This document shows positions 49,210 through 63,955 of a stretch of DNA of 64,000 nucleotides, in pieces. Positions within the stretch are counted from its first letter, which is position 1; the number at the start of each line of letters is the position of its first letter. This stretch comes from an uncultured Elusimicrobiales bacterium (GTDB lineage: Bacteria; Elusimicrobiota; Elusimicrobia; Elusimicrobiales; Elusimicrobiaceae): NCBI GenBank assembly GCA_944324115.1, contig CALUVB010000004.1:62001-126000 (forward strand). The letters are read 5' to 3'. Both the position numbers and the translations under genes were made by a program. The notes under the pieces were generated by a model. It worked only from the letters and a program-made list of their open reading frames with translations, had not been told where the DNA came from and did no database searches.

Positions 49210-49695
49210 TTAGTCCAGCAGTTTATTAATTTCTTGACTGTACTGTTGGGCTAAGCTGTCGGAATATCCACTCCAAAGACGGACTAAATTATGGTTTTGG
49301 TCAAACAGCATAATATGAGGAAAACCTTGCACCATCAAATCTTCAGCCGCTTGACCGCCTTGGTAAAGAATGACGGATTTCAAGTCATAATCTTTCATGA
49401 TTTGCTTTACGGCATCTTCGTCATTATCCACATAAATACCGATGACTTGTACGCCTTTGTCTTTAAATTCCGTATTGGCGGCTTCCAAAGCGGGCAAAGA
49501 GCGTTTGCACCAGCCGCAATAAGAAGCCATGACGGCCACTAATACCGGCTGGCCTTGGTGGTCAGCTGATTTCCATACTTCTTCGCTTCCGGCGATGGGT
49601 AAGGTAATATCCAGCTCCGGTGCTTGGGGTATATTCACGCATGCGCTTAACAACATGGCTGCAACGCCTGCAACTAATAATGTTCTTAATTTCAT
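49210..49695 (-). CDS. TlpA/ResA-like thioredoxin-fold lipoprotein
   Basis: 161 residues. The signal peptide ends in lipobox LSAC (Cys at residue 19). The thioredoxin active site is ASYCGWCKRSLPALEAAN, and the cis-Pro loop is VQGFPHIMLFDQ. This fits a membrane-anchored thiol-disulfide reductase of the TlpA/ResA type, helping cytochrome maturation or reducing periplasmic thiols. The CGWC dipeptide is a little unusual (CEPC or CGPC are commoner). Divergent from the outer-membrane protein at 49796. Confidence 0.85.
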   Translation of the reverse strand: MKLRTLLVAGVAAMLLSACVNIPQAPELDITLPIAGSEEVWKSADHQGQPVLVAVMASYCGWCKRSLPALEAANTEFKDKGVQVIGIYVDNDEDAVKQIMKDYDLKSVILYQGGQAAEDLMVQGFPHIMLFDQNHNLVRLWSGYSDSLAQQYSQEINKLLD

Positions 49696-49795: not shown

Positions 49796-50548
49796 ATGAA
49801 AAAAATAGTGTTGTTGTTTGCTTTGGTTGTAACTTGTGGTACTGTAATGGCACAGACAAGTTATTATAATTATAATCAGCGTTCTAACAGAAACACTTCT
49901 ACTAGACAAAATGCATCTTCAGTCCAAAAAACAAATTTTGCATCTTCCGAATGGCTTAATCAGCGCTATATCGTATATCTCGGCATTGGTGGCGGCGTGC
50001 ATGTAAACGGAGAAGACAGCGTGCCTATGGAAAGCGGCATATTTTGGGGAAATTTGGGCGCGCAGTATTTGATTAATGAATATATTTCTTTGGGCTTGGA
50101 GGGTACTTTAGGCCGCACGTCTGGTAAAGGAGATGGACTTGCGGTAACGGAGCAAATACCTCTTTGGGCAAAAGCGGAACAAGATGACGATTATTTGTTT
50201 GATTGGGGAGTAGGTTTGGCGGGGCGCTTCTATCTGAAACCTTCCGGAAATATCCGTTGGTATGTGCCGGTAGGCGGCGGATATATGTATATGGAACGCC
50301 GAACGAAATACGATATTAAAGCAAATCCGGATTATCCGTATCCGTTTCCTCCGTCTTGGGCTGAGGATAGCGTAACAGAAAAGAAAAAGGCGGGAGACGG
50401 CGCTTATGTGTATGCTGGCTTGGGGGTAGAATATGTGTTGCCCTCGGGATTCGCTGCCGGATTGGAAACCCGCTTCCAATCGTTCAAGATGGCCGGTACA
50501 TGGCTGCAAACGGTAAACTTAGCGGCCAGCCTTGGGCTTCACTTTTAG
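49796..50548 (+). CDS. Outer-membrane beta-barrel protein (OmpA/porin-like fold)
   Basis: 250 residues with signal peptide MKKIVLLFALVVTCGTVMAQ. A Ser/Asn/Gln-rich 40-residue segment follows. A barrel then begins at RYIVYLGIGGGVHVNGE, continues through YISLGLEGTLGRTSGKG and GAYVYAGLGVEYVLPSG, and ends LAASLGLHF with the terminal Phe of Bam substrates. AAGGAG sits five bases before the ATG. No enzymatic residues are recognised. Confidence 0.75.
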   Translation: MKKIVLLFALVVTCGTVMAQTSYYNYNQRSNRNTSTRQNASSVQKTNFASSEWLNQRYIVYLGIGGGVHVNGEDSVPMESGIFWGNLGAQYLINEYISLGLEGTLGRTSGKGDGLAVTEQIPLWAKAEQDDDYLFDWGVGLAGRFYLKPSGNIRWYVPVGGGYMYMERRTKYDIKANPDYPYPFPPSWAEDSVTEKKKAGDGAYVYAGLGVEYVLPSGFAAGLETRFQSFKMAGTWLQTVNLAASLGLHF

Positions 50549-50596
50549 TTAGCCCGTCTTTTTGTATATAAACAATCCGTACAGTCAGTATTATAC

Positions 50597-50620
50597 AACC
50601 CCCGGCTACGCCGGGGGATA
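50597..50620 (+). terminator. Terminator after the beta-barrel gene
   Basis: CCCCCGGC/GCCGGGGG stem with a TAC loop and T-rich tail. Confidence 0.8.
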
Positions 50621-50718
50621 TTTATTAAAATCTGTCGGCCAAGTTCCGATAGATTTTTTGTTTTTCTGATAAAAATAAAGTCCCGCTGCGTGTCCTATAA
50701 ATAAAATATCCCGTTTAG

Positions 50719-50880
50719 TTACGGCTGCTTTATCAGTTTGGGGCGCAAGGTTTGCCAAGCATAGGCCTAGGCCTGGGCGTCTATGAACTGCCCGCGGATA
50801 AAAAAGCATTTGCTATGCGACAAACCTACAATGTGGAAGGGGGCCTAATTAGAATTGGCATGGCGTACAATATAAAAGCG
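50719..50880 (+). pseudogene. Remnant of an outer-membrane protein C-terminus
   Basis: An open frame without a start codon reads YQFGAQGLPSIGLGLGVYE, then MRQTYNVEGGLIRIGMAYNI, in the style of a beta-barrel C-terminal strand. It is open from 50719 after a stop and continues beyond the strand into unrelated low-quality sequence. No signal peptide or Shine-Dalgarno is present. It looks like a decayed copy of a barrel gene such as the one at 49796. Confidence 0.3.
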
Positions 50881-51006
50881 CATGTCATCTCTTGGTTGGG
50901 AAGCTGGGGCTTCTTACTGTCATTTTACTGCCATTTGTTTTGCTGTTTGTTGCGTTTGTGTTGTTTGTATTTATGTGATTTTACGACGAGAAAAAACCAA
51001 AAATAA

Positions 51007-51034
51007 GAGAGCCGCCTTGTAAAAAGCGGCTCTC
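51007..51034. other. Hairpin GAGAGCCGC/GCGGCTCTC
   Basis: A perfect nine-base-pair stem around CTTGTAAAAA, with no T tract. It is the last GC-rich structure before the AT-rich region starts. Confidence 0.5.
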
Positions 51035-51061
51035 ATCAAAACGTACCGACATAGAAGTGAA

Positions 51062-51196
51062 ATGAGGCCTCTTTTGGATTCGTTTATAGAGCGTGCCAAA
51101 GAGATACGGATACTTCGTCAGCACTTGGAAGAAGCAAAAGAAATTCAGAAACGTATTGAAAGGTTTGATTCTGCTGATAAAATCCTATCATTTTAG
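51062..51196 (+). CDS. Small coiled-coil ORF, 44 residues
   Basis: MRPLLDSFIERAKEIRILRQ followed by a charged helical stretch (HLEEAKEIQKRIERF). It looks like a continuous amphipathic helix. No clear Shine-Dalgarno and no known homologue recognised. It is near the probable left edge of the AT-rich region. Confidence 0.35.
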   Translation: MRPLLDSFIERAKEIRILRQHLEEAKEIQKRIERFDSADKILSF

Positions 51197-51229
51197 GTGT
51201 TTCTTGCTAATTCCATTTTTGCTTTCTGC

Positions 51230-51241
51230 TTTAAATTTAAA
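51230..51241. promoter_or_regulatory. TTTAAATTTAAA palindrome before the 51268 ORF
   Basis: A 12-base perfect palindrome, GC-TTTAAATTTAAA-AC, 27 bases before an ATG. It matches the elements at 57104 and 61234. Confidence 0.4.
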
Positions 51242-51267
51242 ACCTTAATACAGGAGACAGAGCAAAA

Positions 51268-51423
51268 ATGGAAAATAATACATTAAAACAAGAATCCAAA
51301 GCCCGTTGGACCAGAGTCTTAAAGCCCACTTTTAAGCCTAAGGCCAATGGAACTAATGCGCGTTGGACTATTTTATTGAAATAGGCTGAATTTGATGAGA
51401 TGCTAAAGAATATAGAAAAATAA
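51268..51423 (+). CDS. Small basic ORF with an in-frame TAG
   Basis: From ATG with AGGAG eleven bases upstream it encodes 38 residues (MENNTLKQESKARWTRVLKP, then FKPKANGTNARWTILLK) and stops at a TAG at 51382-51384. The same frame continues for twelve codons (AEFDEMLKNIEK) to a TAA at 51423. The repeated R-W-T motif is notable. Either the first 39 codons are the gene, or a stop has broken a 50-residue one. Unknown function. Confidence 0.35.
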
Positions 51424-51425
51424 GA

Positions 51426-51454
51426 AACCCCCAAGTTTTGGCTTGGGGATTTTA
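51426..51454. terminator. Terminator between the small ORF and the repeat protein
   Basis: CCCCAAG and CTTGGGG with a TTTTGG loop and a T-rich tail; the A run on the other side lets it serve the minus-strand repeat gene too. Confidence 0.7.
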
Positions 51455-51478
51455 ATTCAGATATTCCAGATAGAATTT

Positions 51479-52381
51479 TTAAAAACTATAGGTTGTAGTA
51501 TTTCCAAACATATCGGTAGAAGACCTATAAGTGGTTCCATTGCTTCCACGAGTGGTAGTGTTACCGAACATATCCGTAGAACTGCGATAAGTGGTTCCAT
51601 TGCTTCCACGGGTGGTAGTATTACCGAACATATCCGTAGAACTGCGATAAGTAGTTCCATTGCTTCCACGGGTGGTAGTGTTACCGAACATATCCGTAGA
51701 ACTGCGATAAGTAGTTCCATTGCTTCCACGAGTGGTAGTGTTACCGAACATATCCGTAGAACTGCGATAAGTGGTTCCGTCGCTTCCACGAGTTGTGGTA
51801 TTCCCGAACATATCGGTAGAAGAACGATATGTTACATTCTTTTTTGTTGGCAATAAAATAGGGGACTTATATGTTGTTGAATCTGAATCAGAGTCAGAAT
51901 CTAGGTCAGAGTCATACCAAGAAGTCTTTTTTTGCTTTTTATTATTAATATCAAAAGTATTATTTGACGGAGAATAGGTGTTCTTTTTGTAATTATAGCT
52001 AGGGGTGCTAATTACTAAAGGATCATCATCTTCTTCCTCATTGGTATCATATCCAGAGGCATAAGTAGTATTGCCTATTTTTGTATAAGTTGAACCATCA
52101 GAGCCATAGGTGGTGTTACCTATCTTCGTATAACTAGTACCATCAGAACTATAAGTAGTGTTTCCTATTCTTGTATAAGATGTGCCATCAGATCCATAAG
52201 TAGTATTACCAATTTTTGTGTAGCTAGTGCCATCGGAATTATAGGTGCTATTTCCTATTCGTGTATAGGTGTTTCCCGCAGACCCATAAGTAGTATTGCC
52301 AATGGTAGTGTAAGTCTCATCCCAAGCGAATGAATTTATAGATAGAAATAAAGCTAAACTTGATATTAATAGTTTATACAT
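51479..52381 (-). CDS. Signal-peptide protein built from two tandem repeat families
   Basis: 300 residues. Signal peptide MYKLLISSLALFLSINSFAW, preceded by a strong AAGGAGG. Repeat family one (residues about 23-112) is six 15-residue units of the form YTKIGNTTYGSDGTS. A linker follows, with an acidic patch and a Ser/Asp run (DLDSDSDSDS). Family two is six 20-residue units TYRSSTDMFGNTTTRGSNG with almost no divergence at DNA level, ending TTYSF. It is probably periplasmic or secreted; the regular turns suggest beta-solenoid or fibre-like packing. No catalytic motif is seen. I used the ATG at 52381 rather than one seven codons upstream, because of the Shine-Dalgarno. Confidence 0.7.
   Translation of the reverse strand: MYKLLISSLALFLSINSFAWDETYTTIGNTTYGSAGNTYTRIGNSTYNSDGTSYTKIGNTTYGSDGTSYTRIGNTTYSSDGTSYTKIGNTTYGSDGSTYTKIGNTTYASGYDTNEEEDDDPLVISTPSYNYKKNTYSPSNNTFDINNKKQKKTSWYDSDLDSDSDSDSTTYKSPILLPTKKNVTYRSSTDMFGNTTTRGSDGTTYRSSTDMFGNTTTRGSNGTTYRSSTDMFGNTTTRGSNGTTYRSSTDMFGNTTTRGSNGTTYRSSTDMFGNTTTRGSNGTTYRSSTDMFGNTTTYSF
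51481..51840 (-). repeat. Six 60-bp tandem repeats in the repeat protein gene
   Basis: The six units line up base for base in 60-base steps with very few substitutions, and encode the 20-residue repeat. Such near-identity in an AT-rich gene implies recent expansion or gene conversion, and copy number probably varies. Confidence 0.9.
52052..52325 (-). repeat. Six 45-bp tandem repeats in the repeat protein gene
   Basis: Encodes the 15-residue IGNTTYGSDGTSYT units. These are more diverged than the 60-bp repeats, so this array is older. Confidence 0.75.
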
Positions 52382-52503
52382 ATGTTCCTCCTTGTTATGC
52401 ATTATACAATAAGTTTTTAGTATTACATTCCAATGTTTTCCTACTATCCAATCAATTAATGCTAATACTGGAATTCACTAAAGTATTGGAGATTTGAAAT
52501 AAC

Positions 52504-55500
52504 TTATCCATAAAAGGGACGCGTCCCCTTGCAAGCGGGATAGTGAGAGCAACCATAAAATTTCCCATATGTTCCTTCTCTAACAAGCATTGACGCTCCG
52601 CATTTTGGACAACCTAAATTTGTATTTTTGCAGTATTTACAAATTCTTCCATATTTTGAAACTAAATTACTATCATAAAAATCGCTTATTGGCCTAATTT
52701 GTTTACATTTAGGACATTCTTTCATCTGTCCGGAAGCTACCCCGTTTACTGTATTTTTGATAACAGAACTCATATCCTCTTCTGCAGGGATGGTATATTC
52801 TTGGAGCAAATTTTTTAATCTAGAATTCAGTGTCTTAATAGGTTCTTCTCCTAAATTAAAGCGATTTATTCTCAAAAATTTATATCCATAACTTTCCAAT
52901 ATTTTTTGTCTGTATATATCTTGTTCCGTATAATAGTTTTCGTAATTATTCGAGTCGATATTTTGACTTTGTTGAAAGTGAAAATCGAAACCATCATATT
53001 CGATAATAATTTTGTGAGTCTCGATATCATTTTCTTTGTATAGTAATAGAAAATCAACCCGATAATTAGGGTTTTGGTAAGTAGAATCAATTTGGGAGAG
53101 ATATTCGCCAAGTTTAAATTGGGGGCGGAATTCTATGTTTTCTTTATTCTCGTTATAGAAATCGGTCTGATAAAAGAAATGTAAAATCTTTTTTTCCATA
53201 GCAGATTGCGGATCAGTTTCGTTAGGCAACGCTTCTTTTTTGCTATTTTGCCAAGTCGCATAAAAATGCCGCAATGCTTCTCCGATTGCACCATTATATT
53301 CCGAAATTGGTTTACTAAGAACAAAATGAATTTGTTCTTTTGCACGACTAAAACCGACATTCAGTCTTTGCGCTCTCAGTTGTCCATCGGCTTCAATATC
53401 TACAGATTTTAAATCCTTAATAAAAACCCCGCTTAATCTGTCACTATGTTCGGAAGCAACCATTGAATAAAAAATAATATCTCTTTCTTCACCTTGGCAG
53501 GTATCAAAAGTCATAATTTTTAAATGTAAATCTGATTCAAAAAAATCTTTATTAATAGAATCAGAGACAAGTTGTAATAATAATTTTTGTTGATTTGTAT
53601 GCGGAGTTATGATCCCCACAGAAGCTTTCTGTCCTTCTTCCTTCATTTTATTTAACTGTTCCAAAATAAATTCGGCTTCTTCTTTATTGGTATTGGGTTT
53701 ATCTTGCTCAGCAGAAGAAGTTATAAAAGAGAATTTTAAAACATCATCTATCATTTTTCCGCGAATCTTCATCACTTGAAGACTTTTGTTGTAGAAATTA
53801 GTATTTGAATAAGATATTAATTCTTTATAACCCCTAAAATGCTTTTGAAGTTGAGTACTATAATTGGCAATAAAATCAAAAAAATCCAAAATAGAGGTTT
53901 TAATATTAAATTTATCTAATTTGGTTCGTTTTTCAGGATCTCTAGAAATATGATTAACAAAAGAAGATCTCAATTGATTAACATATTGGAGATTAACCTC
54001 TGTTTTTGCCTGATTAGTTTTAACGTTACTGAATTGCTTTCTATCTCCTAATACAACAACTTTTTTAGCTCGAAGGAGGGCGGGAAAAGCTTGTGCAATG
54101 CTCACCTGAGACGCTTCATCTATGATGATTAAATCAAAAATATTAGGCAAAAGTGGTATATATTCAGCATAATCTCTTATCCCGGCTAAGATACAAGGGA
54201 AAGCTTCTTTAAGCTTAGAAAAGATATTCCTTGGGAATTTTTGTTTAGCCTTGATAATCTCTTTTAATGTTTTGGCTGTATTTCTATTTTCATCATAAAA
54301 AGAAATAAGCTGATCATCTATTTGATAAGCCATTTTGTAGGTAACATCTTTTTCTAATAATTCTTTTTGGGCCAAAAAAGAAGATTCTGGTAATGTTTCA
54401 AAAGTTTGCGAAAGTGCAATTCGCTGTTTTAAGTAATCAATTAATTTTGAAAAATTCTCTTCCGAATAATTTGTAAAAAAATTCGAGAGGACAAAGGACA
54501 AGGGCTCCTTTAATGGATCAAAGTCTCTTAGAAACGGATATTTATTTATTAGTACAGATAACGCAGAAAAATATTTTTCAATAGATAAGAGTCCTTGTAT
54601 TTGATCAATAAGAATTTTATTTTGTAAGAAAATATGTAATATTTTTACTTTGTCAAAATATACCTTTTTTGAAAATTTAGAGGAGAACTCTTGAACAGCA
54701 AAAGTCATTATATCTGATAAGAGAGAAAGTTCTTCCAGTTTTTTATGAGGCTCTATTGAACCATTTATATTAAATGTCTTTCTGAATTCTAAATTTTGTT
54801 GGGCAACGAATTTTCCTTTAAACAAAAAACCAAATACAGGGGTTTTATTTTGAATATATATATTAATGTGTTTTTTTATTTTATCGATATCCTCTTCTTG
54901 TAAGGATGAGAAGAGTTGGATAACCGAAAGCTGTTCACGATAGATATTAGTTACTTTTTCTTTAACTTGCAAAAGGTTATTTAGTCCCGCAATATATGTT
55001 TCTAAGTCGGAAAAGTTTTTTAAGTCTTCTAATTTGAAACCTAGCATTTGCAGTAGTGGTTGTTCAGGATTAAGTTTGTTTTTTATTGAAGAAAAAAGAC
55101 TTTTGATTTTAATCAAATCATCTACTGCATCTTGTGATAAAAAACAATGAATATCAAACGGAAGTTTTTCCATTTTGATAATGTTTTCTAAGCACACAAA
55201 ATCATCAATATTTTTCAGTTTAATAGCATCATATAATGAAATTTCTTTTTGAATATCTTTTTTCAGTGAAGTAGTAATTTTTTCAATATCTCGTTCTATC
55301 TGTTTTATTTTATTATCTAAAACAGAGTGAAAATTTCTTATTTTATCAATACTTTGTGAACTTAAAATCTGGTTGTAAGTAGAGCCAGCCTTTCCAAGTC
55401 TTAATATAGGGTTTTGAAAATTTTTATCATTCCGTATTTTATTGATGGCTCCGGTAATCTTATCCTCAACAACATCCAAGGCTTCTTTCTTATCAGAAAG

Positions 55501-56979
55501 AACCAAAATTGATTCATTTTTCAAAATAGCATCGCATACCATTGCTGTAATAGTATGACTTTTACCTGTTCCAGGAGGCCCCTCTACAACAATATACTTA
55601 CACTTTTCCTTATTTATTGCGCTTAGTATCTGCCGTTGCTCTCTATTTAACGGGATAGGACTTTTATAAATAAGCTTATCTTCAGTAGGCAATTCTTTCC
55701 AATCAGATTTAATATTCTTAATGAAACTTTCTGGTTCTTTATGAATAAAGTCATTAATTAAGGTGTAGAATGAATTTACTAGAATAGGGTCTTCTTTAGC
55801 CAAAAGATCTAAAATTTCTTCATAATCATTAACGAGAGCCTCATCTGATCGGTCAAATAGGGCGATATACATATTTGTATTAATTTGGCAGAAAAAACCT
55901 TTAGAAATCTGTTTTTGAGAATCGGCCAAATCGATTTTTTTATCTAGAGAAAAGAAAATAATAAGGCTATTTAAAATTTTATTTGTTACTTTTTCCAACT
56001 CAATATCTTTTGTTAAATAAATAATTCTTTCTTGAATATCTTCAATATTCCCCATCTTCCCTGTAGCTTTGTTATATTCCTGAGCAATAAAATGGAGGGC
56101 TCTTTTATTAATAAAAAGCTGTGTGCCAAACTCAATGGTGTTTTTTTGGTTGAAATAAATCGGGATGTAAAAAATTGGGAATTTTTCTTTTTGGTATACA
56201 ATTTCTCCAAAATAAAGATAAAACTCTTGTTTATCTAATACCTTATTATTCCTTTTTAGTTCTTCCACCTCAGAGAATAAATCTCCAATTTGAAAGTTTT
56301 CAAAAAAACTATAAATAGTTTTTTGAACTTCAGTTTCTTTTAAAATGGATAATAATTCTTCAGATATATTTGTTTTTTTCTCAAAAATGAAATTTTTTAC
56401 AATTTCTTCTGTTTTACTTTTTAATAAATCGCATAAAACATCCGTCAATTCTTCTTCCAATGCATAGGTTGTTTCAACATCATTTGAACTTAATTTAATA
56501 ATCTGGGTATCTAAAGAAGAAATAAGAGGAACAACTATTTCTTTTTTAATAACAGTAGAAATAGCAGGTGTTATTTTGGCTATAATTTCTCCAAAGTCAC
56601 CATTGGTTTGTTTTGTAATCTTTAGAATAGATTGCTTGATTACTTCTGCAACATATTCCATTTTCTTTTTTGTAATGGTAAAGTTTGTTAATTCTTTTAC
56701 TATTGATAGAGTTTTCTTTGGAACAGAAGTTTTGTAAGTATTTGGAGGAAGAGTTAAAGAATCTACAAAATTTTTCCTAAAAGCTTTATGAACAGCCGAA
56801 GAAAAAGAAGGATACTTATATAAAGAAATCCCCACTCTTAAATTGTCACTATTTATAGTTTTGATAGATCTTTTTGGCCATTTCTGTTTTTTAAAATCAG
56901 TTTCAAGGAAATCCATAAAATATTTGGATAGTTCCTTGATAAACTCAATTCCTTGAAAGCGATTTTGTTGTTCGGCCAT
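52504..56979 (-). CDS. Giant SF1 helicase with C-terminal nuclease and zinc ribbons (putative defence protein)
   Basis: 1491 residues and AT-rich. The first ~440 residues are of unknown fold. Walker A is VVEGPPGTGKSHTIT (GPPGTGKS 467-474); a long, mostly helical insert (about 500-930) follows. Walker B is LIIIDEASQVSIAQAFP (about 951-957), then VVVLGDRKQFSNV, IMTFDTCQGEERDIIF (1155-1170) and RLNVGFSRAKEQIHFVLS, a UPF1/Dna2-type SF1B motor. After it comes a DUF559/Vsr-like PD-(D/E)XK fold (YRVDFLLLYK to IIIEYDGFDFH, D1309 and E1327/D1329). Two zinc modules end it: C1422/C1425/C1447/C1450 and a topoisomerase-type C1457/C1460/C1477/C1483. Architecture and island setting suggest anti-phage defence; that is inference. 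Nearest alternatives are DNA repair or plasmid maintenance. Confidence 0.8.
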   Translation of the reverse strand: MAEQQNRFQGIEFIKELSKYFMDFLETDFKKQKWPKRSIKTINSDNLRVGISLYKYPSFSSAVHKAFRKNFVDSLTLPPNTYKTSVPKKTLSIVKELTNFTITKKKMEYVAEVIKQSILKITKQTNGDFGEIIAKITPAISTVIKKEIVVPLISSLDTQIIKLSSNDVETTYALEEELTDVLCDLLKSKTEEIVKNFIFEKKTNISEELLSILKETEVQKTIYSFFENFQIGDLFSEVEELKRNNKVLDKQEFYLYFGEIVYQKEKFPIFYIPIYFNQKNTIEFGTQLFINKRALHFIAQEYNKATGKMGNIEDIQERIIYLTKDIELEKVTNKILNSLIIFFSLDKKIDLADSQKQISKGFFCQINTNMYIALFDRSDEALVNDYEEILDLLAKEDPILVNSFYTLINDFIHKEPESFIKNIKSDWKELPTEDKLIYKSPIPLNREQRQILSAINKEKCKYIVVEGPPGTGKSHTITAMVCDAILKNESILVLSDKKEALDVVEDKITGAINKIRNDKNFQNPILRLGKAGSTYNQILSSQSIDKIRNFHSVLDNKIKQIERDIEKITTSLKKDIQKEISLYDAIKLKNIDDFVCLENIIKMEKLPFDIHCFLSQDAVDDLIKIKSLFSSIKNKLNPEQPLLQMLGFKLEDLKNFSDLETYIAGLNNLLQVKEKVTNIYREQLSVIQLFSSLQEEDIDKIKKHINIYIQNKTPVFGFLFKGKFVAQQNLEFRKTFNINGSIEPHKKLEELSLLSDIMTFAVQEFSSKFSKKVYFDKVKILHIFLQNKILIDQIQGLLSIEKYFSALSVLINKYPFLRDFDPLKEPLSFVLSNFFTNYSEENFSKLIDYLKQRIALSQTFETLPESSFLAQKELLEKDVTYKMAYQIDDQLISFYDENRNTAKTLKEIIKAKQKFPRNIFSKLKEAFPCILAGIRDYAEYIPLLPNIFDLIIIDEASQVSIAQAFPALLRAKKVVVLGDRKQFSNVKTNQAKTEVNLQYVNQLRSSFVNHISRDPEKRTKLDKFNIKTSILDFFDFIANYSTQLQKHFRGYKELISYSNTNFYNKSLQVMKIRGKMIDDVLKFSFITSSAEQDKPNTNKEEAEFILEQLNKMKEEGQKASVGIITPHTNQQKLLLQLVSDSINKDFFESDLHLKIMTFDTCQGEERDIIFYSMVASEHSDRLSGVFIKDLKSVDIEADGQLRAQRLNVGFSRAKEQIHFVLSKPISEYNGAIGEALRHFYATWQNSKKEALPNETDPQSAMEKKILHFFYQTDFYNENKENIEFRPQFKLGEYLSQIDSTYQNPNYRVDFLLLYKENDIETHKIIIEYDGFDFHFQQSQNIDSNNYENYYTEQDIYRQKILESYGYKFLRINRFNLGEEPIKTLNSRLKNLLQEYTIPAEEDMSSVIKNTVNGVASGQMKECPKCKQIRPISDFYDSNLVSKYGRICKYCKNTNLGCPKCGASMLVREGTYGKFYGCSHYPACKGTRPFYG

Positions 56980-57077
56980 GGCGATATGATTTTCCTAAAT
57001 AATATACTAATACAATTCTAACATAAACAATATAGATAATAAAATTTAATTCATGTTAATTTTTACAAGACTAACTA

Positions 57078-57144
57078 AATCCATCAGTTTTTTCCAAAAC
57101 TTGTTTAAATTTAAAACAAGTAGCAAAGGGGGAACTGATGGATT
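57078..57144 (+). promoter_or_regulatory. Long stem-loop covering the RBS and start of a small ORF
   Basis: AATCCATCAGTT (57078-57089) is the exact reverse complement of AACTGATGGATT (57133-57144), which contains the ATG at 57138. The stem extends through U-G pairs of TTTT (57090-57093) with GGGG (57129-57132) and C94-G128, so the Shine-Dalgarno AAAGGGGG is paired too. Inside, ACTTGTTT (57099-57106) pairs with AAACAAGT (57114-57121) around the TTTAAATTTAAA core. As RNA this would block translation; as DNA it could be a protein or replication-origin site. Confidence 0.65.
57104..57115. promoter_or_regulatory. TTTAAATTTAAA palindrome, copy in the stem-loop
   Basis: Centre of the stem-loop. About 40 bases around it align with the sequence before the excisionase-like gene (61221-61255), sharing TTTTTTC, AAA, GTTTAAATTTAAAA and AAGTA. 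Confidence 0.5.
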
Positions 57145-57242
57145 ATTTTATGTATACGGTTATGGCTTTTCTAAATACGATTCACTTCATATGTGTCGTT
57201 TTTCTGCTTTCTTTCTGGCTGCAAGAATTGATTAAAAAATAA
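57138..57242 (+). CDS. 34-residue hydrophobic membrane peptide (toxin-like)
   Basis: MDYFMYTVMAFLNTIHFICV then VFLLSFWLQELIKK: one membrane helix with a basic C-terminal end, the layout of type I toxins and small phage membrane peptides. The Shine-Dalgarno is AAAGGGGG seven bases from the ATG, but both are buried in the stem-loop at 57078-57144. A terminator follows at 57268, so this is its own short transcription unit. It lies divergent from the giant helicase. The gene is short and coding status is inferred from RBS, topology and isolation; no homologue is recognised. Confidence 0.5.
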   Translation: MDYFMYTVMAFLNTIHFICVVFLLSFWLQELIKK

Positions 57243-57267
57243 CTTATCAAACAACAGCCCGCTCCTC

Positions 57268-57301
57268 CACCCTCAGCCTTACCGGTTGGGGGTGTTTTTT
57301 A
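57268..57301 (+). terminator. Terminator after the membrane peptide
   Basis: CACCCTCAGCC pairs with GGTTGGGGGTG (two wobble pairs) around TTACC, followed by six T residues. Confidence 0.8.
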
Positions 57302-57340
57302 TCGGTTAATGTGCATTTCTAACTATTAATTCAGTTTCCA

Positions 57341-57377
57341 GTTTAAATTTATGTGGCCTATGCTGCACGAATTTAAA
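57341..57377. promoter_or_regulatory. Split TTTAAATTT half-sites before the replication gene
   Basis: GTTTAAATTT (57341-57350) and GAATTTAAAAC (near 57367-57377) are inverted half-sites about 17 bases apart, in front of the ATG at 57394. They resemble the two halves of the palindrome found elsewhere in the island. Confidence 0.4.
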
Positions 57378-57393
57378 ACAGAGGAATTGGATT

Positions 57394-58617
57394 ATGTTTG
57401 ATAAGTTTACAATGTATGCAGATAGAGCAGATTTCAGTCGTGTACCTAGCCCGATAGAACTAAATAATAAAGACTGGTTAATAAAACACCCACCGCAGTA
57501 TTTTCCAAAGGTTAGTTATTGTTCAGGCAGTTACTTTGGAAATTCATTTAAAATAGAAGTCTCTATACCTAAGATCCTATACGGAAACAACTTCTTTGAA
57601 GCCCAAGAGAGCGATTTTGAAACTTTTTTGGACAAATTAACTATACAGCTTGAGAAAATGGGGTTTTGTATTGGGAAAGACATGCTCCGCTATAATCAGT
57701 CCATTTACAATATAGAAATCGCTAAAAACTGCATTTTAGGTAATATCCCAACCTCTGTTGTATTGGGAAATCTATATAAAAGCAAGGCTCCAAGACCGCA
57801 AATGAAATTAGTAGGTAAGGATTGGATACCAGGAGAACAAGTCAGATTTATCGGTGCTAGTCATGAAATAACCTTCTATGACAAATACCTTGAGTTAGTA
57901 ATGGCGAAACGGAATCAGTTTAACTTGGATTGGTTATTCCACAGGTCTGACTTAAAAAATATCCTACGCATGGAAATAAGACTTAAAAAGGAACAAATTA
58001 AGCAGATATTTGGCGATAGACCCACCTTAGAAGAGATGTTTAAAGAGAGATACTATCATAAGGCAGTGCAAAAGTATTTTGGGCCAATGGCAACCTATTT
58101 GCTAACACATCAACCTTATGTTACCCCTGATACAGAACTTTTACTATACAAAGATGAAGAAATGAACGCCAGCAAAATGAAAGATTTGTTCCTAGTAAAA
58201 AGCTTAATTAATGAGCATGGCTATATATACGCAAAGAAAAGATTAAAGGACTTGTTTGGCGATAAAGAAGCTAATAGAATATTTGCCCTTCTAAAGAGAT
58301 ATCCACCTATGGAAGTAGTTCAGCCGGAATACAACTTTCTACCTATGCTAGCAGAGCAGATAAACCAACCTAAGTGGCTTACTCCTGCAAATATTGTTAG
58401 TTTGGAAGTGCCTAATGTTAAATCTGAAAACTTTTTAGAGGAATCTCTTTGGAATTGTGCCCAGTCGGCAAAATACCTAGGGGTCGGGCCTAGGGAAATT
58501 CAAAGAAGGTGTAAAAATAAGGAGATTCCAAGTATTGTTATAGCTGGTTCCTACCGAATACACAAGGCTGATATAATGGCTTATGCGTACAGAGAGCAAC
58601 GAAAAAAGGGCTCATAG
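57394..58617 (+). CDS. Replication-initiation-like protein (phage gpII/Phage_CRI type) with C-terminal HTH
   Basis: 407 residues. The first ~250 residues have the character of filamentous-phage/plasmid replication initiators: DKFTMYADRADF at the start, KVSYCSGSYFGNSFKIEVSIPKILYGNNF, FDKLTIQLEKMGF, a ITFYDKYLEL block, and LKNILRMEIRLKKEQIKQIFG. These are the strands around which the catalytic His/Tyr residues of such enzymes are placed; the active Tyr is not identified with confidence. The last ~60 residues are an excisionase/MerR-like HTH (SAKYLGVGPREIQRRC, GSYRIHKADIMAY). That end-on fusion could be a DNA-recognition domain for its own origin. AGAGGAATT precedes the ATG. Confidence 0.55.
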   Translation: MFDKFTMYADRADFSRVPSPIELNNKDWLIKHPPQYFPKVSYCSGSYFGNSFKIEVSIPKILYGNNFFEAQESDFETFLDKLTIQLEKMGFCIGKDMLRYNQSIYNIEIAKNCILGNIPTSVVLGNLYKSKAPRPQMKLVGKDWIPGEQVRFIGASHEITFYDKYLELVMAKRNQFNLDWLFHRSDLKNILRMEIRLKKEQIKQIFGDRPTLEEMFKERYYHKAVQKYFGPMATYLLTHQPYVTPDTELLLYKDEEMNASKMKDLFLVKSLINEHGYIYAKKRLKDLFGDKEANRIFALLKRYPPMEVVQPEYNFLPMLAEQINQPKWLTPANIVSLEVPNVKSENFLEESLWNCAQSAKYLGVGPREIQRRCKNKEIPSIVIAGSYRIHKADIMAYAYREQRKKGS

Positions 58618-58642
58618 TACTACAGTAGTTAAACAAAACAAA

Positions 58643-58679
58643 AATAAATGCTTCTTAAGATAAATAAGAGGCATTTATT
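58643..58679 (+). terminator. Terminator of the replication gene
   Basis: AATAAATGCTTCTT and AAGAGGCATTTATT form a 13-of-14 stem around AAGATAAAT. The AT-rich stem is consistent with the composition of the island. Confidence 0.7.
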
Positions 58680-59534
58680 ATTTAAAAGAATCAAAATAAA
58701 AATAGAAAACAAATAAACCCGATATAATAACCAATAAAATAACAGAAATACCAAGATAAAAACCTATTGATTGATTTATTTGTATAGAAGAATAAAAATA
58801 GAAAATAAAGAAAAATCTAAATACAAAATAAAGTTATAAGAAGAAATACCAATACAGTTTTAAGTAAATCTATAAATTTTTGTTTTAGTTATAAAAATCA
58901 TCTAATACTTTTTTAATACCAATACAAATTTACTTAATTAACTCTTCCTGTTATAAATATCAAATAAATTATCTTTCTATTATTTGTTAATTCCTTTGTT
59001 TTTGTGTTTTCTAATAAAAGCAGTAATATATTTTTAATATTTTATTAAAAGTACAAATAGAAACTTAACCTAAAACTATATATTTCTTAATTAAAGATTT
59101 TTCTATTTTCTTTTGATTTTTTCCCATTGTTTTTTCTTTATTTATTTTGTTCTACATATTATTTTTTAATCTTTTTAATTTGTTTATTTTAAGAGCATTT
59201 TATTTAAAAAACCATAAACTATATACCTTTTACAATAAAAACCTATTAAAACCTGATTTTGAGCATTTAAAGTATATTTGTATTACTGTATCACAAACAA
59301 AAAACCTATCCCGTTATTAAAAGAGATAGGTTTGTTAAAAAACATAATCAATTAATAGTCTAAATTCTTTTTGATATGCAAATTTTTTTCTTTTTTTAAA
59401 AGCACAAAAAATATGGCAATATATTTGGATATTGCTTTTCTTAACATCTGCTGTTGCAAATTCTATCACTTGAATAGTTGCTTGCTTTTGATTTCTATAA
59501 TAAGCGGGAGATATTCGGTGAGTATGTTTATTAA
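58680..59534. other. AT-rich gap with short direct repeats
   Basis: About 850 bases of very AT-rich DNA without a credible ORF, directly downstream of the replication-like gene. It holds a 12-base direct repeat AATACCAATACA (58845-58856 and 58915-58926), each copy followed by TAAGTAAAT or its inverse ATTTACTTA. ATAAAAACCTATT also occurs twice (58756-58768, 59235-59247). Near 59303-59332 AACCTATC pairs with GATAGGTT. This could be an origin or regulatory RNA region; nothing proves it. Confidence 0.4.
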
Positions 59535-60971
59535 CTATTCATCTTGTTGATTAAATTGTTTTAAAATTTTCCGGATCTCTTCTATAGAAATATTCAATTC
59601 TTCTTGTGAGTAGATTTTGTTGAGAGTGTTTTCGGGATGATGTATATAATTCCTGATGTACGTAAAAAGAGTGCAAAAATATTTCGTATTATATTTACAA
59701 TTTAGCCACTCTTTGTTTAAAGAAATCTGATAATACATGTCTAGGTGTTTATCAAACTTTTTTTGATCAAAAAGATTCAATCGCTCCATCAGTTCTCCGT
59801 AAAGTTCATTAAAATATTCCGTTGTAATTAAATCAAAAGCCAAGTAATTAATTTCATTGGCAGAAATATACGACAAAACCCGTTCTTTTATTGATGAACT
59901 TTGAATTTTTCCTTCTTCTTTTCGCAATGCTTTGGTATTTATTTTGCAATGCAGAAACATTTGTTTTAACAGCAATGGGGAATGCGTTGTGATAATGATT
60001 TGAGCAACCTTTGATAGTTCTAATAGGACTTGAACGAATTTCTCCTGCAATTCTGGATGCAAATGTAATTCTGGTTCATCAATCAAAACAATTTCTTCTC
60101 TCTGCTTTTCTTCAATACTGGATAATAAATATAACAATGAGAAAATCATTTCATAGCCACTTCCCATTTGGTTCAAAGATAGATGGATTCCTTTGGGGGT
60201 AACATGTGCAAAAAAGGCTCTATCAAATGGATGAAAAGGATCTAGGGTTTTTAGGTTAACAGAAATACCTACCGCATCTTGAAATTTCTGAATGGTATGC
60301 TTTAGTATGTGACTATTTAGATCTTTTTTAAGCTTATCAAACTCGACGTCAATATCTTTTGTTGCTTTTCCCTGATATAAAACCTGTCTGTTTAAATCTT
60401 TCATAATTCTGTCAAATTTAGTGTCATTAAAGGTTCCTGTTTTGACGGAGTAATGTCTGTTCTTCTCTATATAAGTAAAACCAAAATCAGGAAAGCGATT
60501 TCCAACCCATGGATTACGTACCGAAACTCTTATATCCGGAGAATTATCGTCAGGTTTTTCATTTTTATCTGTTTTAATAACTGTTAAGTCATGTACCACT
60601 GGTGAAGCTAAATATGTGGCATTTTTCACACGCATATTAGCTTTAAATTGAAATCCTTGGCCGCTATATAAGGTTTTTGTTGATACTACACTCTTGTATG
60701 TAAAGGCTTCTTTCGTAATCCCTCTGATTATAAGTTCTCTTTTAATATCATTAAAATCCGAGATCGATATAGAATCTCCTCTATATTCAGAGAAACATAG
60801 GCTAATTGCATCTAAGATGCTAGTCTTTCCTGTGCCATTATTTCCCAATAACACATTTAATCCAGAACCTATTTCTCCGTTTGGAGTAGAAAATTCATCC
60901 AATATAAATGCTTTTTTAGTGTCTGTCTCGTAAATACGGAAATTACTTATTGATAGGCTTTTAATAAACAT
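59535..60971 (-). CDS. OLD-like AAA ATPase with C-terminal HEPN-like R-x4-H motif
   Basis: 478 residues. RecF/OLD-type start SLSISNFRIYE, Walker A LLGNNGTGKTSILDAIS (GNNGTGKT 43-50), the signature-like LSLNQMGSGYEM (264-275), Walker B EIVLIDEPELHLHPELQEKF (293-), and the H-loop ITTHSPLLLKQ. There is no Toprim domain. Instead the last ~100 residues are helical and contain YIRNYIHHPEN, with R440-x4-H445, the RNase motif of HEPN toxins. An ATPase that gates a HEPN RNase would fit an abortive-infection defence gene. Nuclease role and target are inferred. It is monocistronic and AT-rich like its neighbours. Confidence 0.7.
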   Translation of the reverse strand: MFIKSLSISNFRIYETDTKKAFILDEFSTPNGEIGSGLNVLLGNNGTGKTSILDAISLCFSEYRGDSISISDFNDIKRELIIRGITKEAFTYKSVVSTKTLYSGQGFQFKANMRVKNATYLASPVVHDLTVIKTDKNEKPDDNSPDIRVSVRNPWVGNRFPDFGFTYIEKNRHYSVKTGTFNDTKFDRIMKDLNRQVLYQGKATKDIDVEFDKLKKDLNSHILKHTIQKFQDAVGISVNLKTLDPFHPFDRAFFAHVTPKGIHLSLNQMGSGYEMIFSLLYLLSSIEEKQREEIVLIDEPELHLHPELQEKFVQVLLELSKVAQIIITTHSPLLLKQMFLHCKINTKALRKEEGKIQSSSIKERVLSYISANEINYLAFDLITTEYFNELYGELMERLNLFDQKKFDKHLDMYYQISLNKEWLNCKYNTKYFCTLFTYIRNYIHHPENTLNKIYSQEELNISIEEIRKILKQFNQQDE

Positions 60972-61233
60972 AAAGATCCTCTCTCTGCTTAATTACAACT
61001 GAAGTGTTTACTAGGTAATGTGTATTCAAAATAGAAACTAATTAATATGTACAAATATTCTTATCAACAACTAGGAAAATTTTCATAGAGTTGTTATTTT
61101 TTAGGGTTTCCAAAGGTTCCCATTCTCCAATTTTACATATCATATTGCTTTTATTATACATAAGATTTTCTTTTTTCTCCTGCGTGTTTTAGGCTTATTT
61201 TTCCCTATACAGATCAATTTTTTCAAAATCTAG

Positions 61234-61245
61234 TTTAAATTTAAA
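61234..61245. promoter_or_regulatory. TTTAAATTTAAA palindrome before the excisionase-like gene
   Basis: Same palindrome as at 57104, with similar flanks (TTTTTTC upstream, GAAGTATATAG downstream). It lies about 90 bases before the ATG at 61337. Confidence 0.5.
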
Positions 61246-61336
61246 AGAAGTATATAGATTTGTGTACAAAAATACATTTATATCTATTACAAATTTATTC
61301 TTCTTTTTAATCTAAAAAAATAAGGAAATAAGGAAT

Positions 61337-61561
61337 ATGGAACAAAATCATAAAAGATTAGTAAGCACAAAGGAATTAGCCCAATATGTTGGATCAAGTG
61401 AGAATAGTATACGTAGCTTGAAATCACAAGGCAAAATCCCCTCTCAATGGGTAATAAATATCGGAAGATCTGTCCGTTACGACCTCAATGAGGTTGATAA
61501 ATGGATTGAAAGTAAAAAAGAAGCCAATAAAACAAATATTTTGACAGGTTGGAGCATTTAG
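61337..61561 (+). CDS. Excisionase-like / MerR-type HTH protein
   Basis: 74 residues. The winged HTH is plain: LVSTKELAQYVGSSENSIRS (helices 1-2), LKSQGKIPSQWVINIGRSVRY (wing) and DLNEVDKWIE. This matches HTH_17/AlpA-like excisionases and phage regulators. With the serine integrase 1 kb downstream it probably helps excision, or regulates element genes through the nearby palindromes. Its last codons are three bases from the next ORF. Confidence 0.8.
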   Translation: MEQNHKRLVSTKELAQYVGSSENSIRSLKSQGKIPSQWVINIGRSVRYDLNEVDKWIESKKEANKTNILTGWSI

Positions 61562-61563
61562 TT

Positions 61564-61920
61564 ATGAAAAAGAAACAAATAAACAGAAAAGCAAAAAATA
61601 AAGCCGTTTACCCCAAAATAGAAATTATTAAAGAATTGAAAATAAACAAAAGGAGAAAACCTTATAAAAAGAGAAAACAAACGATAGCCAAGAAAAAAAG
61701 AGGCCCCAGAGGCCATTATAAAAAGGGTTCAACTCAAGGTTATTTGAATTTGAACAAATACATAAACAAATTTTTGGTTTGTGTACAAAAGGTAGTAAGC
61801 GCATCTGCTTTGGGCAAAATGTTCAAAAGGGCTGATTGCTCATCGATCGTAGCTACGGTTATGGTGCGAAGTGTAGATGTCTGCTTGGCATTCGCCATCC
61901 GGTTGTATAAGAGACATTAA
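61564..61920 (+). CDS. Very basic protein of unknown function
   Basis: 118 residues. The first ~60 residues are dominated by Lys and Arg (INRKAKNKAVYPK, KRRKPYKKRKQTIAKKKRG), and the C-terminal third is more hydrophobic with three Cys. No domain recognised. The charge suggests nucleic-acid binding, for example a recombination accessory protein. The ATG at 61564 is three bases past the preceding stop, so it is likely cotranscribed. Confidence 0.5.
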   Translation: MKKKQINRKAKNKAVYPKIEIIKELKINKRRKPYKKRKQTIAKKKRGPRGHYKKGSTQGYLNLNKYINKFLVCVQKVVSASALGKMFKRADCSSIVATVMVRSVDVCLAFAIRLYKRH

Positions 61921-62083
61921 TGTGTGGTCGGGAAAGGCTGGTTGAGAGAATTTAGTGTATATTTACTATTTTCTTAATCGAATGAATCTTATGCCATAAA
62001 GGAGTTTGAGGATATGTTGCAAGAAAGCAAAAACTCGGTTTCTTTATAGAAAATAGAAAATTTAAAAATAGGTCAGAGTGAAT

Positions 62084-62212
62084 ATGAGCTTCGAGAAAGA
62101 ATTAGAACAAGAAAATTCAATCTTGAGAGAAGCGGAATTCCAAGAGGAAGAGGAAGCCATATTCCAACTTTTCAAGATTTTGTACAAATTACGAAAAATA
62201 AATATCAAATAA
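62084..62212 (+). CDS. Small acidic helical ORF, 42 residues
   Basis: MSFEKELEQENSILREAEFQ, then EEEEAIFQLFKILYKLRKIN. A strongly acidic first half and a basic second half form a probable amphipathic helix. Shine-Dalgarno is poor. It resembles small transcriptional or anti-repressor peptides in mobile elements only in size. Confidence 0.35.
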   Translation: MSFEKELEQENSILREAEFQEEEEAIFQLFKILYKLRKINIK

Positions 62213-62386
62213 AATCTTTTTAAAAAGATAAGTTTCGTTTATCAGTATAGGTTTTCTGTTTGAAAATCATGAATTTAGAGTTTCAAAGCCTTATTGATAA
62301 ATCATGTCTGAAGAGCAATAGAGAAAAAAGACTCAACAGACAATCAAATACGCTAATATGGAATGTAGTAGCGGAGGAAAAAAAGA

Positions 62387-63898
62387 ATGAAAGCAATTAT
62401 TTGGACAAGAGTTTCTTCAGTAGAACAAGAATATGGTAAATCATTGGATGCTCAAATGCTTAGTTGTCGTCAATATGCAGCCAATAAAGGTTTTAATGTG
62501 CTCAAAGAGTTCAGCATATCAGAATCTTCGACAAGGGGAAATCGTAAAAAATTCAACGAAATGATTAGATTTGTCCTTTCTCAGGAAGGAGTTGTCAGAA
62601 TTATTACATACAGTGTAGACCGATTCCAAAGAAGGTTTGAAGAGTCTGTAGATTTGATGCCTTTCATAGAAAGTGGCAAAATAGAAATTCACTTTATTGC
62701 TACGGGCTTGGTAATAGGTAAAAATTCAAAACCTGCTGAATATATGATGTGGGATTACAATGTGGTGGGAGCCAGAAGTTATATTTTACAATTACGAGAG
62801 GGAACAAAAAGGGGGATACAGCAAAAAATCAGAGATGGCGAATGGCCTACAACAGCCCCTATAGGTTATCTTAACTACATAGATGGAAAATATCGAAAAA
62901 TAAAAGTAGATGAAGAAAGAGCCCCTTTAATAAAAATGGCTTTTGAGGAATATGCTACTGGTTTGTATAGTATAGATGAAATTGTCCGTCGTTTACATAA
63001 AAGAGGGTTAAGAAGCAGAGGTAAACGGGGAAGGCTTATTTCAAAAAATGCCGTACACAGAATGCTTCAAAACCCTTTTTATTATGGCATGATGAAACTC
63101 TATAATGGGGCAAAGTTTCAACCTCATATATATCCACGTTTGATTAGTAAAAGCTTATTTGATCAGTGTGAAGAAGTGCGATTGGGGCGCAAGAAATCTT
63201 TTGTTAAGAACAAGGGAAAGGAATTCTTGTTTAAAGGAATGGTTCGTTGTGGAAAGTGTGGCCATTTGGTATCGCCATATAAGAAAGTTAAAAAGAGTGG
63301 TAAAGTATATAATTATTTGCGTTGTGCTCAGCATGCTTTAAATAATAGCTGTGATAATGAGCAAATAAAAGAAAAAATAGCATTAGACCGCATTACAGAA
63401 GGATTACAAGCAATTACTATTCCGGAGAGTATGGCTGAAAAAATTCGCCAAGAGTTAATTAAATACAATCAAGAAGAGCTTCAGACTAAATCTGTTTTGA
63501 TTAAAGAAGCCAATAGAATTTTGGGCGTCATCAAGCAAAAAATAGATCGTTTGGTTGATTTGCGTTTGCAAGATGGGATCTCTGATGTTTTATTTAAGCA
63601 GAAAATTAAGGAACTGCAAGATGAACAGGCCCGTTTGGAAGAATCAACGGCGGAAAGTAAAGCGGAGGAAGCATCTTTAGATGTTTCTATTGAAGAAGTG
63701 CTTAGTTTAGCCAAAGATATAGGGAAAATTTTTAAGAGTTCGCAAATTGATGGAAAAAAGGAAATTATAAACTGTGTTTTTGCGAACTTGTCTTTGGAGC
63801 AAAAAAACCTTTATTTTTCCTATAAAAAACCCTTCAACTTGTTTGTTGAAGGGCTATCTTGTACTAAACTTTACCGGGGAAGGGACTTGAACCCTTAA
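62387..63898 (+). CDS. Large serine recombinase (integrase)
   Basis: 503 residues. The resolvase domain has the nucleophile Ser in AIIWTRVSSVEQEYG (Ser about residue 10), SVDRFQRRFEES with the catalytic Arg, and REGTKRGIQQKIRDGEWPTTAPIGY leading into the recombinase domain. The zinc-ribbon domain shows VRCGKCGHLVSPYKKVKKSG and the later RCAQHALNNSCD. A coiled coil follows (about residues 350-450). GGAGG lies nine bases before the ATG. The last nine codons (LYRGRDLNP) are the tRNA-Leu T-arm and 3' end read in the other direction, so the gene runs into the attachment site. Confidence 0.93.
   Translation: MKAIIWTRVSSVEQEYGKSLDAQMLSCRQYAANKGFNVLKEFSISESSTRGNRKKFNEMIRFVLSQEGVVRIITYSVDRFQRRFEESVDLMPFIESGKIEIHFIATGLVIGKNSKPAEYMMWDYNVVGARSYILQLREGTKRGIQQKIRDGEWPTTAPIGYLNYIDGKYRKIKVDEERAPLIKMAFEEYATGLYSIDEIVRRLHKRGLRSRGKRGRLISKNAVHRMLQNPFYYGMMKLYNGAKFQPHIYPRLISKSLFDQCEEVRLGRKKSFVKNKGKEFLFKGMVRCGKCGHLVSPYKKVKKSGKVYNYLRCAQHALNNSCDNEQIKEKIALDRITEGLQAITIPESMAEKIRQELIKYNQEELQTKSVLIKEANRILGVIKQKIDRLVDLRLQDGISDVLFKQKIKELQDEQARLEESTAESKAEEASLDVSIEEVLSLAKDIGKIFKSSQIDGKKEIINCVFANLSLEQKNLYFSYKKPFNLFVEGLSCTKLYRGRDLNP
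63824..63853 (-). terminator. Minus-strand terminator inside the integrase gene
   Basis: CCCTTCAAC (63830-63838) and GTTGAAGGG (63845-63853) form a nine-base-pair stem, and on the minus strand six T residues follow. It lies 18 bases past the tRNA-Leu 3' end, so it terminates the tRNA transcript while also being integrase coding sequence. Confidence 0.8.
63872..63898. other. Probable attachment-site overlap (integrase stop within tRNA-Leu)
   Basis: Shared by the end of the integrase ORF and the 3' end of the tRNA. A second copy of this sequence would mark the other end of the element; I did not find one by eye in this window. The exact core cannot be set without it. Confidence 0.5.
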
Positions 63899-63955
63899 GC
63901 CCGAAAGGGCAATGGTTTTTGAGACCATCCTGTATACCAATTCCAGCACCCCGGC
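63872..63955 (-). tRNA. tRNA-Leu (anticodon CAA)
   Basis: Acceptor stem GCCGGGG/CCCCGGT (one G-U pair) with discriminator A and no encoded CCA. Anticodon stem ATGGT/ACCAT with loop CTCAAAA, which reads CAA at positions 34-36 behind the conserved T33. A long variable arm GCCC-GAAA-GGGC marks a class II tRNA, and the T arm is AAGGG-TTCAAGT-CCCTT. The 3' end points toward the integrase, whose stop codon lies within the T arm. This is the likely integration target. Confidence 0.95.

Follow-up and report, generated by a model that had tools for sequence, protein, structure and literature searches.

A large serine recombinase that very likely inserts its element at the end of tRNA-Leu(CAA), exchanging the tRNA terminator and its own C-terminus

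Results

An integrase gene shares its end with tRNA-Leu(CAA)

The window, that is, the whole stretch of 64,000 nucleotides that was analyzed, belongs to a 1.5-Mb draft genome (G000) of Elusimicrobium type from a gut bacterium. Near its right end, an integrase gene and a tRNA gene converge and have 27 nt in common:

62387-63898, + strand: large serine recombinase (LSR, integrase), 503 aa in the integrated form; Pfam Resolvase, Recombinase, and Zn_ribbon_recom
63872-63955, - strand: tRNA-Leu(CAA), predicted by ARAGORN; putative integration target
63824-63855, - strand: putative element-borne intrinsic terminator of the tRNA (hairpin plus T6), antisense to integrase codons KKPFNLFVEG

By its domain content, the product of 62387-63898 is a large serine recombinase, with a catalytic Resolvase domain followed by a Recombinase domain and a zinc ribbon (Pfam 9.6e-17, 6.1e-14, and 8.9e-09, respectively), and it is predicted to act between attP and attB. 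Only the last 7-8 codons are encoded by the tRNA. From the core (see below) onward these residues read RGRDLNP, the first codon being split by the core.

A previous sequence-only reading of this DNA had proposed that the integrase ORF overlaps both the tRNA-Leu 3' end and its terminator. This was borne out by the 27-nt overlap and by the hairpin, which lies wholly within integrase codons. The T-arm is covered as that reading described, but so are the discriminator base and the acceptor strand. It had missed the serine class of the integrase, which Pfam revealed, as well as the shared core of just 5 bp and the fact that the arrangement is a family trait.

Boundaries of the element and a displaced native-type terminator

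The following features delimit the predicted element:

51044-63876, + strand: integrative element between two TACCG cores, 12,828 bp plus one core, delimited by left-end homology, the shared core, and empty-site synteny
51044-51048: attL core TACCG
63872-63876: attR core TACCG, equal to the last five bases of the tRNA
51007-51034, - strand: putative displaced native-type tRNA terminator hairpin outside attL; fold with a T-rich tail, flank alignable with the G001 and G016 empty sites
51044-51196, + strand: left-end frame with an ATG of its own at 51062; predicted continuation of the integrase in the circle

Read on the + strand, the 3' end of the tRNA begins with the five bases TACCG. The tRNA-Leu gene is present in 58 of the 61 genus genomes searched (in G019 and G064 by a 23-base match only), and the right flank, from 64030 on, is conserved beside it. 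Left of the tRNA, empty-site relatives carry homologs of window 49210-49695 (redoxin-like), joined in G080 by a gene like the neighboring outer-membrane gene 49796-50548. From these left neighbors, the chromosome therefore resumes at about 51 kb; a left chromosomal flank ending at ~49.7 kb was dropped and its end moved to 51,043 in view of the G080 gene. When window 50550-51400 was compared with 66 genus genomes, homology started at query base 495, which is 51044, with TACCG (G033:C86, 87%; G028:C1, 95%). A search of the own genome with 21 bases of the tRNA end, allowing up to 3 mismatches, returned, apart from the tRNA, a single site with 3 mismatches, which lies beyond the window. There is no long repeat within the window and no longer tRNA fragment at the far end. 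As in genomic islands, an intact tRNA is accompanied by a displaced 3' remnant, here the 5-bp core with the native-type terminator; the integrase at the tRNA end is a serine recombinase instead of the tyrosine integrase by which such islands are recognized.

The hairpin immediately beyond attL is GAGAGCCGC/GCGGCTCTC in G000, and a T-rich tract accompanies it on the strand of the tRNA. In G033 and G028, this position is occupied by terminators of the AAAACCACC type, as found 3' of tRNA-Leu in other genus genomes. The 143 bases left of G000 attL were aligned with five empty sites and with 200 shuffles: G001 scored 97.5 (shuffle maximum 70) and G016 scored 85 (71), and the other three of the five tested (G076, G071, and G021) were not above all 200 shuffles. 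G033, which is another species, has the same integrase end (94% identical to that of G000), the same hairpin (followed by a single-base difference), and the same spacer, next to another variant of the tRNA body. As a native-type terminator lies outside attL and homology starts from the core, the hairpin was brought in by the element and the native terminator was moved away from its tRNA. The element hairpin has thereby taken the place of the host terminator, with the native-type one now 12.8 kb off.

Partial copies of the element occur at the same tRNA in G068 (L055, L116), G028 (L090), and G023 (L091). They are of three kinds: a right end by itself, a left end accompanied by 1.7 kb of other sequence, and a decayed left end. 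G068 keeps only the last ~36 integrase codons, and G023 has a stop in the left frame. In G028, the tRNA again has a native-type terminator and the left end is 1.7 kb away, and for these reasons we regard this copy as rearranged.

Cargo genes

Between its ends, the element encodes, among others, the following proteins:

61337-61561, + strand: HTH_17 protein (Pfam), candidate directionality factor or regulator
59535-60971, - strand: AAA_15/AAA_21 (OLD-like) ATPase, cargo
57394-58617, + strand: 407-aa protein with a C-terminal HTH_17, possibly a replication initiator
52504-56979, - strand: superfamily-1 type helicase (AAA_11/AAA_12) with a zinc ribbon, cargo

Matches to defense models within 52504-60971 are to shared domains, and a defense role for the OLD-like ATPase and the helicase is only a guess. 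No Pfam match to structural, relaxase, or transfer genes was found in the seven larger element proteins scanned. Beside the left end, window 51479-52402 encodes a 307-aa protein with repeats of 15 and of 20 residues (45- and 60-nt units).

Related integrases end in tRNA genes across phyla

Integrase matches were detected in 39 of the 66 genus genomes, and 18 of those matches were examined along with the window. Fifteen of these 19 genus loci end at a tRNA 3' end (Leu, Glu, Pro, His, or Val). The other four (G072, G062a, G065a, and G071) are followed by the left end of the next element, at tRNA-His, and look like the outer members of tandem arrays, in which the outer integrase frame reads through the core into the left end of the next element. 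LSR elements apparently in tandem make tRNA-His a hot spot in G062 (L121, L134), G065 (L122, L128), G071 (L125), and G072 (L120).

A wider scan covered one genome per species. Among the best 80 of 124 relatives, 49 ORFs end within a tRNA gene on the other strand, 27 are not in a tRNA according to ARAGORN (some of these are still tRNA-like), and 4 run off the contig. The 49 tRNA-ending LSRs involve tRNAs for 13 amino acids and, judging by record titles, come from Elusimicrobiota, Alphaproteobacteria including Rickettsiaceae, Patescibacteria, Bdellovibrionota, and others.

Against viral contigs, the integrase alone found no relative and alignment A1 gave one match, at 23%. LSRs of 29-37% are present in two fecal "phage" and two plasmid records, which were considered as circular forms and rejected, as these LSRs, too, end within tRNA genes and the records gave no free attP. 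All five further loci from viral, phage, and plasmid records also end within a tRNA. One locus from a Legionella adelaidensis plasmid (L223, 6001-7500) has an LSR over the 3' end of tRNA-Asn, immediately behind a gene for a tyrosine integrase. Contig L177, which bears the title Chlamydia trachomatis, is from a metagenome-assembled genome with such an element, and its species label looks doubtful. A non-coding repeat of ~200 bp (CCTGCAGGCCGG...GCGCATAAAGCAGTTTATGCGC) lies beside tRNA 3' ends in L092 (4604-4814, window orientation), L090, and L079; in G033 and G023 it is accompanied by a duplicated tRNA 3' fragment, and it is possibly a tiny tRNA-targeting satellite.

The rebuilt circular form extends the integrase

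From these boundaries, the circle junction is predicted to read ...GTACTAAACTT-TACCG-ACATAGAAGTGAAATG...; this pattern had no match in viral contigs. In the rebuilt attP, the integrase frame stays open through the core into the left end of the element, giving a predicted long form of 545 aa that ends in ...LYRHRSEMRPLLDSFIERAKEIRILRQHLEEAKEIQKRIERFDSADKILSF. The left-end frame is conserved in G033 and G028: differences at the three codon positions number 0, 2, and 7 for G000/G033, 0, 0, and 3 for G000/G028, and 0, 0, and 5 for G033/G028 (all synonymous), and a single 9-nt indel keeps the frame. Alternatively, the left-end frame could be a small gene of its own, starting at the ATG at 51062. 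We infer that the element still excises.

The sequence-only reading had suggested that regulatory sequence of the tRNA gene is supplied, or at least shared, by the element, and the supply of a terminator agrees with the left boundary at 51044 and the native-type terminator outside it. Its further claim, that integration must preserve both the tRNA end and its terminator, was not supported: the tRNA is preserved, and the terminator and the integrase C-terminus would both be replaced. It had also named a contrary outcome, an excised integrase ending before 63824 with a purely chromosomal hairpin, and this is contradicted by the left boundary, by the different terminator beyond it, and by the rebuilt frame, which keeps the hairpin codons.

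The assignment of the downstream part to the integrase is supported by a tail match for the tRNA-Asn relatives and, for G000, by conserved coding only. The far end of tRNA-Asn elements carries the code for an LPxxxxFRTLDWxxIxxELxIF tail, whose frame continues that of the integrase over the core. A search with the tail motif gave 11 matches in 9 loci (one of the two L178 matches is unrelated). Six loci have FRTLDW-type tails (L173, L178, L181, L189, L192, and L193), L174 and L177 being omitted from the six-tail profile, and L168 behaves likewise with a core of 15-16 bp. It should be noted that cores were chosen with the frame as a condition, so that the phase is a real test only for L178, L192, L193, and L168. 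Two LSRs that are uncut by a tRNA, L206 and L169, match the profile of the six tails at their C-termini (9.5e-10 and 1.9e-7, respectively); hence, in the tRNA-Asn elements, attP falls inside the integrase gene and the native tail is removed on integration. A second LSR-like end lies just left of attL in L192 and L193, which may be tandem copies. An automated search for attL with long cores in the 49 tRNA-overlapping loci gave few usable cases (L193, L195, and L205), most cores being too short. The tails of His-type elements are shorter or different (14-48 residues) and have no clear codon bias. The G000 tail, which found no match in any intact integrase, appears to be of its own kind, with a role suggested by analogy with the tRNA-Asn elements.

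The C-terminal exchange could be a neutral by-product of an att site near the gene end that leaves the enzyme unaffected, a reading that we place only slightly below an even chance. It would fit with integrated forms that end in very different tRNA-derived residues, with a core far from the last domain, and with the variable, unbiased tails of the His-type elements. It fits less well with the six tRNA-Asn tails, which are conserved and match intact LSR C-termini, with the mostly third-position differences among the G000, G033, and G028 tails, or with the Myxococcus phage Mx8, whose swapped integrase is described as less active in the accessible text of PMC4701971. A second alternative, an immobile fossil in which the overlap merely results from decay, finds a precedent in the decayed copies of G023 and G068, but appears unlikely given that the G000 integrase is intact over all three Pfam domains, that both ends are exact, and that a 94% identical integrase end is found in another species with another tRNA variant (G033).

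An antisense hairpin with signs of selection as nucleic acid

Directly downstream of the tRNA, the - strand reads CCCTTCAAC, a loop of 6, and GTTGAAGGG (63830-63853). This GC-rich stem of 9 pairs, or 11 with the flanking A/T pairs (63828-63855), is followed on the transcribed strand by T6, which is the A6 at 63824-63829 on the + strand, as in intrinsic terminators. Its minimum free energy is -17.3 kcal/mol (z = -4.5; none of 200 dinucleotide shuffles was as stable), and it is the sole terminator-like site on the - strand between 62000 and 64000. Transcription of the tRNA is predicted to end at this hairpin (63824-63855).

Synonymous shuffles that kept the protein and the codon usage of the gene never matched the strength of the antisense terminator in G000 (0/200; -15.3 vs a mean of -4.3). 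Across 11 Elusimicrobium LSRs, the same test gave 0/200 in eight, 1/200 in G062a, 3/200 in G021, and 22/200 in G018, in which the stretch tested contains no terminator. The G000 integrase has 12 proline codons, and the single CCC among them is a stem codon. Six LSRs have the motif K[KN]PFxxxxEG; among these, pairing is kept in 98.1% of cells, and three pairs are changed on both sides. The covariation score was 0.341, vs 0.110 when shuffled and at most 0.119 when slid, and it was 0.449 vs 0.155 with four same-shape host terminators added; these sequences are few and related, and the scores are supportive rather than probabilities. Codons and pairing together indicate selection on the hairpin as nucleic acid. 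Since K/R-x-P-F is also present in relatives with the hairpin elsewhere, an older protein motif was probably co-opted as a hairpin through codon choice.

Antisense terminators of -11 kcal/mol or stronger precede the tRNA in 23 of the 49 tRNA-ending relatives; three controls, the sense strand and two internal windows, gave 3/49, 2/49, and 1/49, respectively. The other 26 relatives have no antisense terminator at this threshold. At -7 kcal/mol, the counts are 34 antisense vs 14 sense, and 14 and 7 in the internal windows.

Serine integrases have recombinase-binding arms next to the core, and these arms are generally conserved too. The inverted repeat could be such an arm of the att site, used for DNA recognition and with no part in termination, but this is improbable: the hairpin is centered ~30 nt away from the core and not on it, the strand with the T-tract is that of the tRNA, strong sites in relatives are antisense far more often than sense (23/49 vs 3/49), and stem sequences differ with pairing kept. 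That the hairpin is the host's own terminator, with the integrase frame merely reading into it and a crossover upstream of 63824, is very improbable. In its favor, 11 integrase-free flanks, out of 34 distinct tRNA-Leu flanks, carry a hairpin that matches in shape and spacing and reads KKPFDLLVKG in the frame of the integrase end. Against it, left-end homology begins exactly at the tRNA-end core, another terminator lies outside attL in G000, G033, and G028, and the G000 and G033 hairpins and spacers are the same beside different tRNA bodies. The KKPFDLLVKG flanks belong to G002, G007, G008, G010, G020, G021, G024, G067, G071, G072, and G075. The similarity of these KKPF-like host terminators to the integrase end is limited to the hairpin and a few codons around it, and they may be scars of an old element. 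Among the relatives compared, the targeting of tRNA ends together with a predicted antisense terminator is a family trait that is general across phyla.

Discussion

We consider it highly probable that the LSR inserts its own 12.8-kb element at the last bases of tRNA-Leu(CAA), using the 5-bp core TACCG. Because the attachment site would lie within the 3'-terminal part of the integrase frame, integration would both give the tRNA a new terminator and swap the integrase tail. The tRNA would gain the element terminator, carried antisense to the integrase K-K-P-F...E-G codons, and the native one would be pushed to the far end; the C-terminal extension of the circular form would be split off, leaving the short tail RGRDLNP read from the tRNA in its place. 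The terminator would likely ensure a proper tRNA 3' end and keep antisense transcription of the tRNA out of the integrase gene.

More tentatively, and with less than even confidence, the att site of this widespread clade of tRNA-targeting serine integrases may be a two-way switch. The full-length enzyme of the circle, with its C-terminal tail (of the FRTLDW type, or of a coiled-coil type in G000), would favor integration. Once integrated, the tail would be exchanged for tRNA-encoded residues and activity would be changed or damped, helping to set the direction, and the same stretch of DNA would deliver the replacement terminator to the tRNA. If this were true, the enzyme would signal whether it is integrated, and some of the tRNA terminators of hosts would be leftover integrase ends.

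An integrase gene that spans attP, as in phage Mx8 and the streptococcal ICEs of rumA, is found here in the 545-aa frame of G000 and the in-phase tails of relatives. In the rumA ICEs, the serine integrase gene also contains the att site, 3' parts are exchanged, and the C-terminus changes on integration; the target there is a protein gene, unlike in G000, and neither a tRNA nor an exchange of terminators is described in the accessible part of the source (PMC4701971). Mx8 likewise has attP within its integrase gene and swaps the C-terminus on integration, 112 residues being replaced by 13, but its enzyme is a tyrosine integrase, and the accessible text mentions no antisense terminator (PMC4701971, PMC4383910). 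Archaeal suicidal (SSV-type) integrases share an att site inside the integrase gene; from what the accessible text gives, they belong to the tyrosine recombinases, and their gene is broken up into parts that are inactive, whereas in G000 only the C-terminal end would be exchanged (PMC8371274). As in the Islander class of tRNA genomic islands, attP restores the tRNA 3' end and displaced material marks the far end; according to the portion available, those islands use tyrosine integrases, and the 5-bp core of G000 is too short for a tRNA-fragment search (PMC4383910). Phages with integration-dependent immunity also have a gene that spans attP and gains a new C-terminus on integration at a tRNA, but this gene is the repressor rather than the integrase in the sections consulted (PMC9934374).

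A 2014 paper states, in the part accessible, that serine integrases were not known to target tRNA genes (PMC4383910), and the word "tRNA" is absent from the accessible text of an LSR survey (PMC10083194). In the literature searched, we found no description of serine integrases over tRNA genes with terminator exchange, although more may exist in print. The C-terminal exchange is already known; tRNA targeting by LSRs in combination with a dual-coded replacement terminator was not found in that literature.

Serine integrases are widely used for genome engineering. The family described here offers integrases with widely conserved tRNA targets, and its state-dependent forms become directly testable. 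It also carries a warning: the last residues of such integrases in databases derive from the tRNA and are not the enzyme's own C-terminus. For the elements themselves, one stretch of DNA would serve as protein code, att arm, and predicted terminator of a host gene, at many tRNAs and in many phyla, which shows a way for an element to enter the end of an essential gene without harm.
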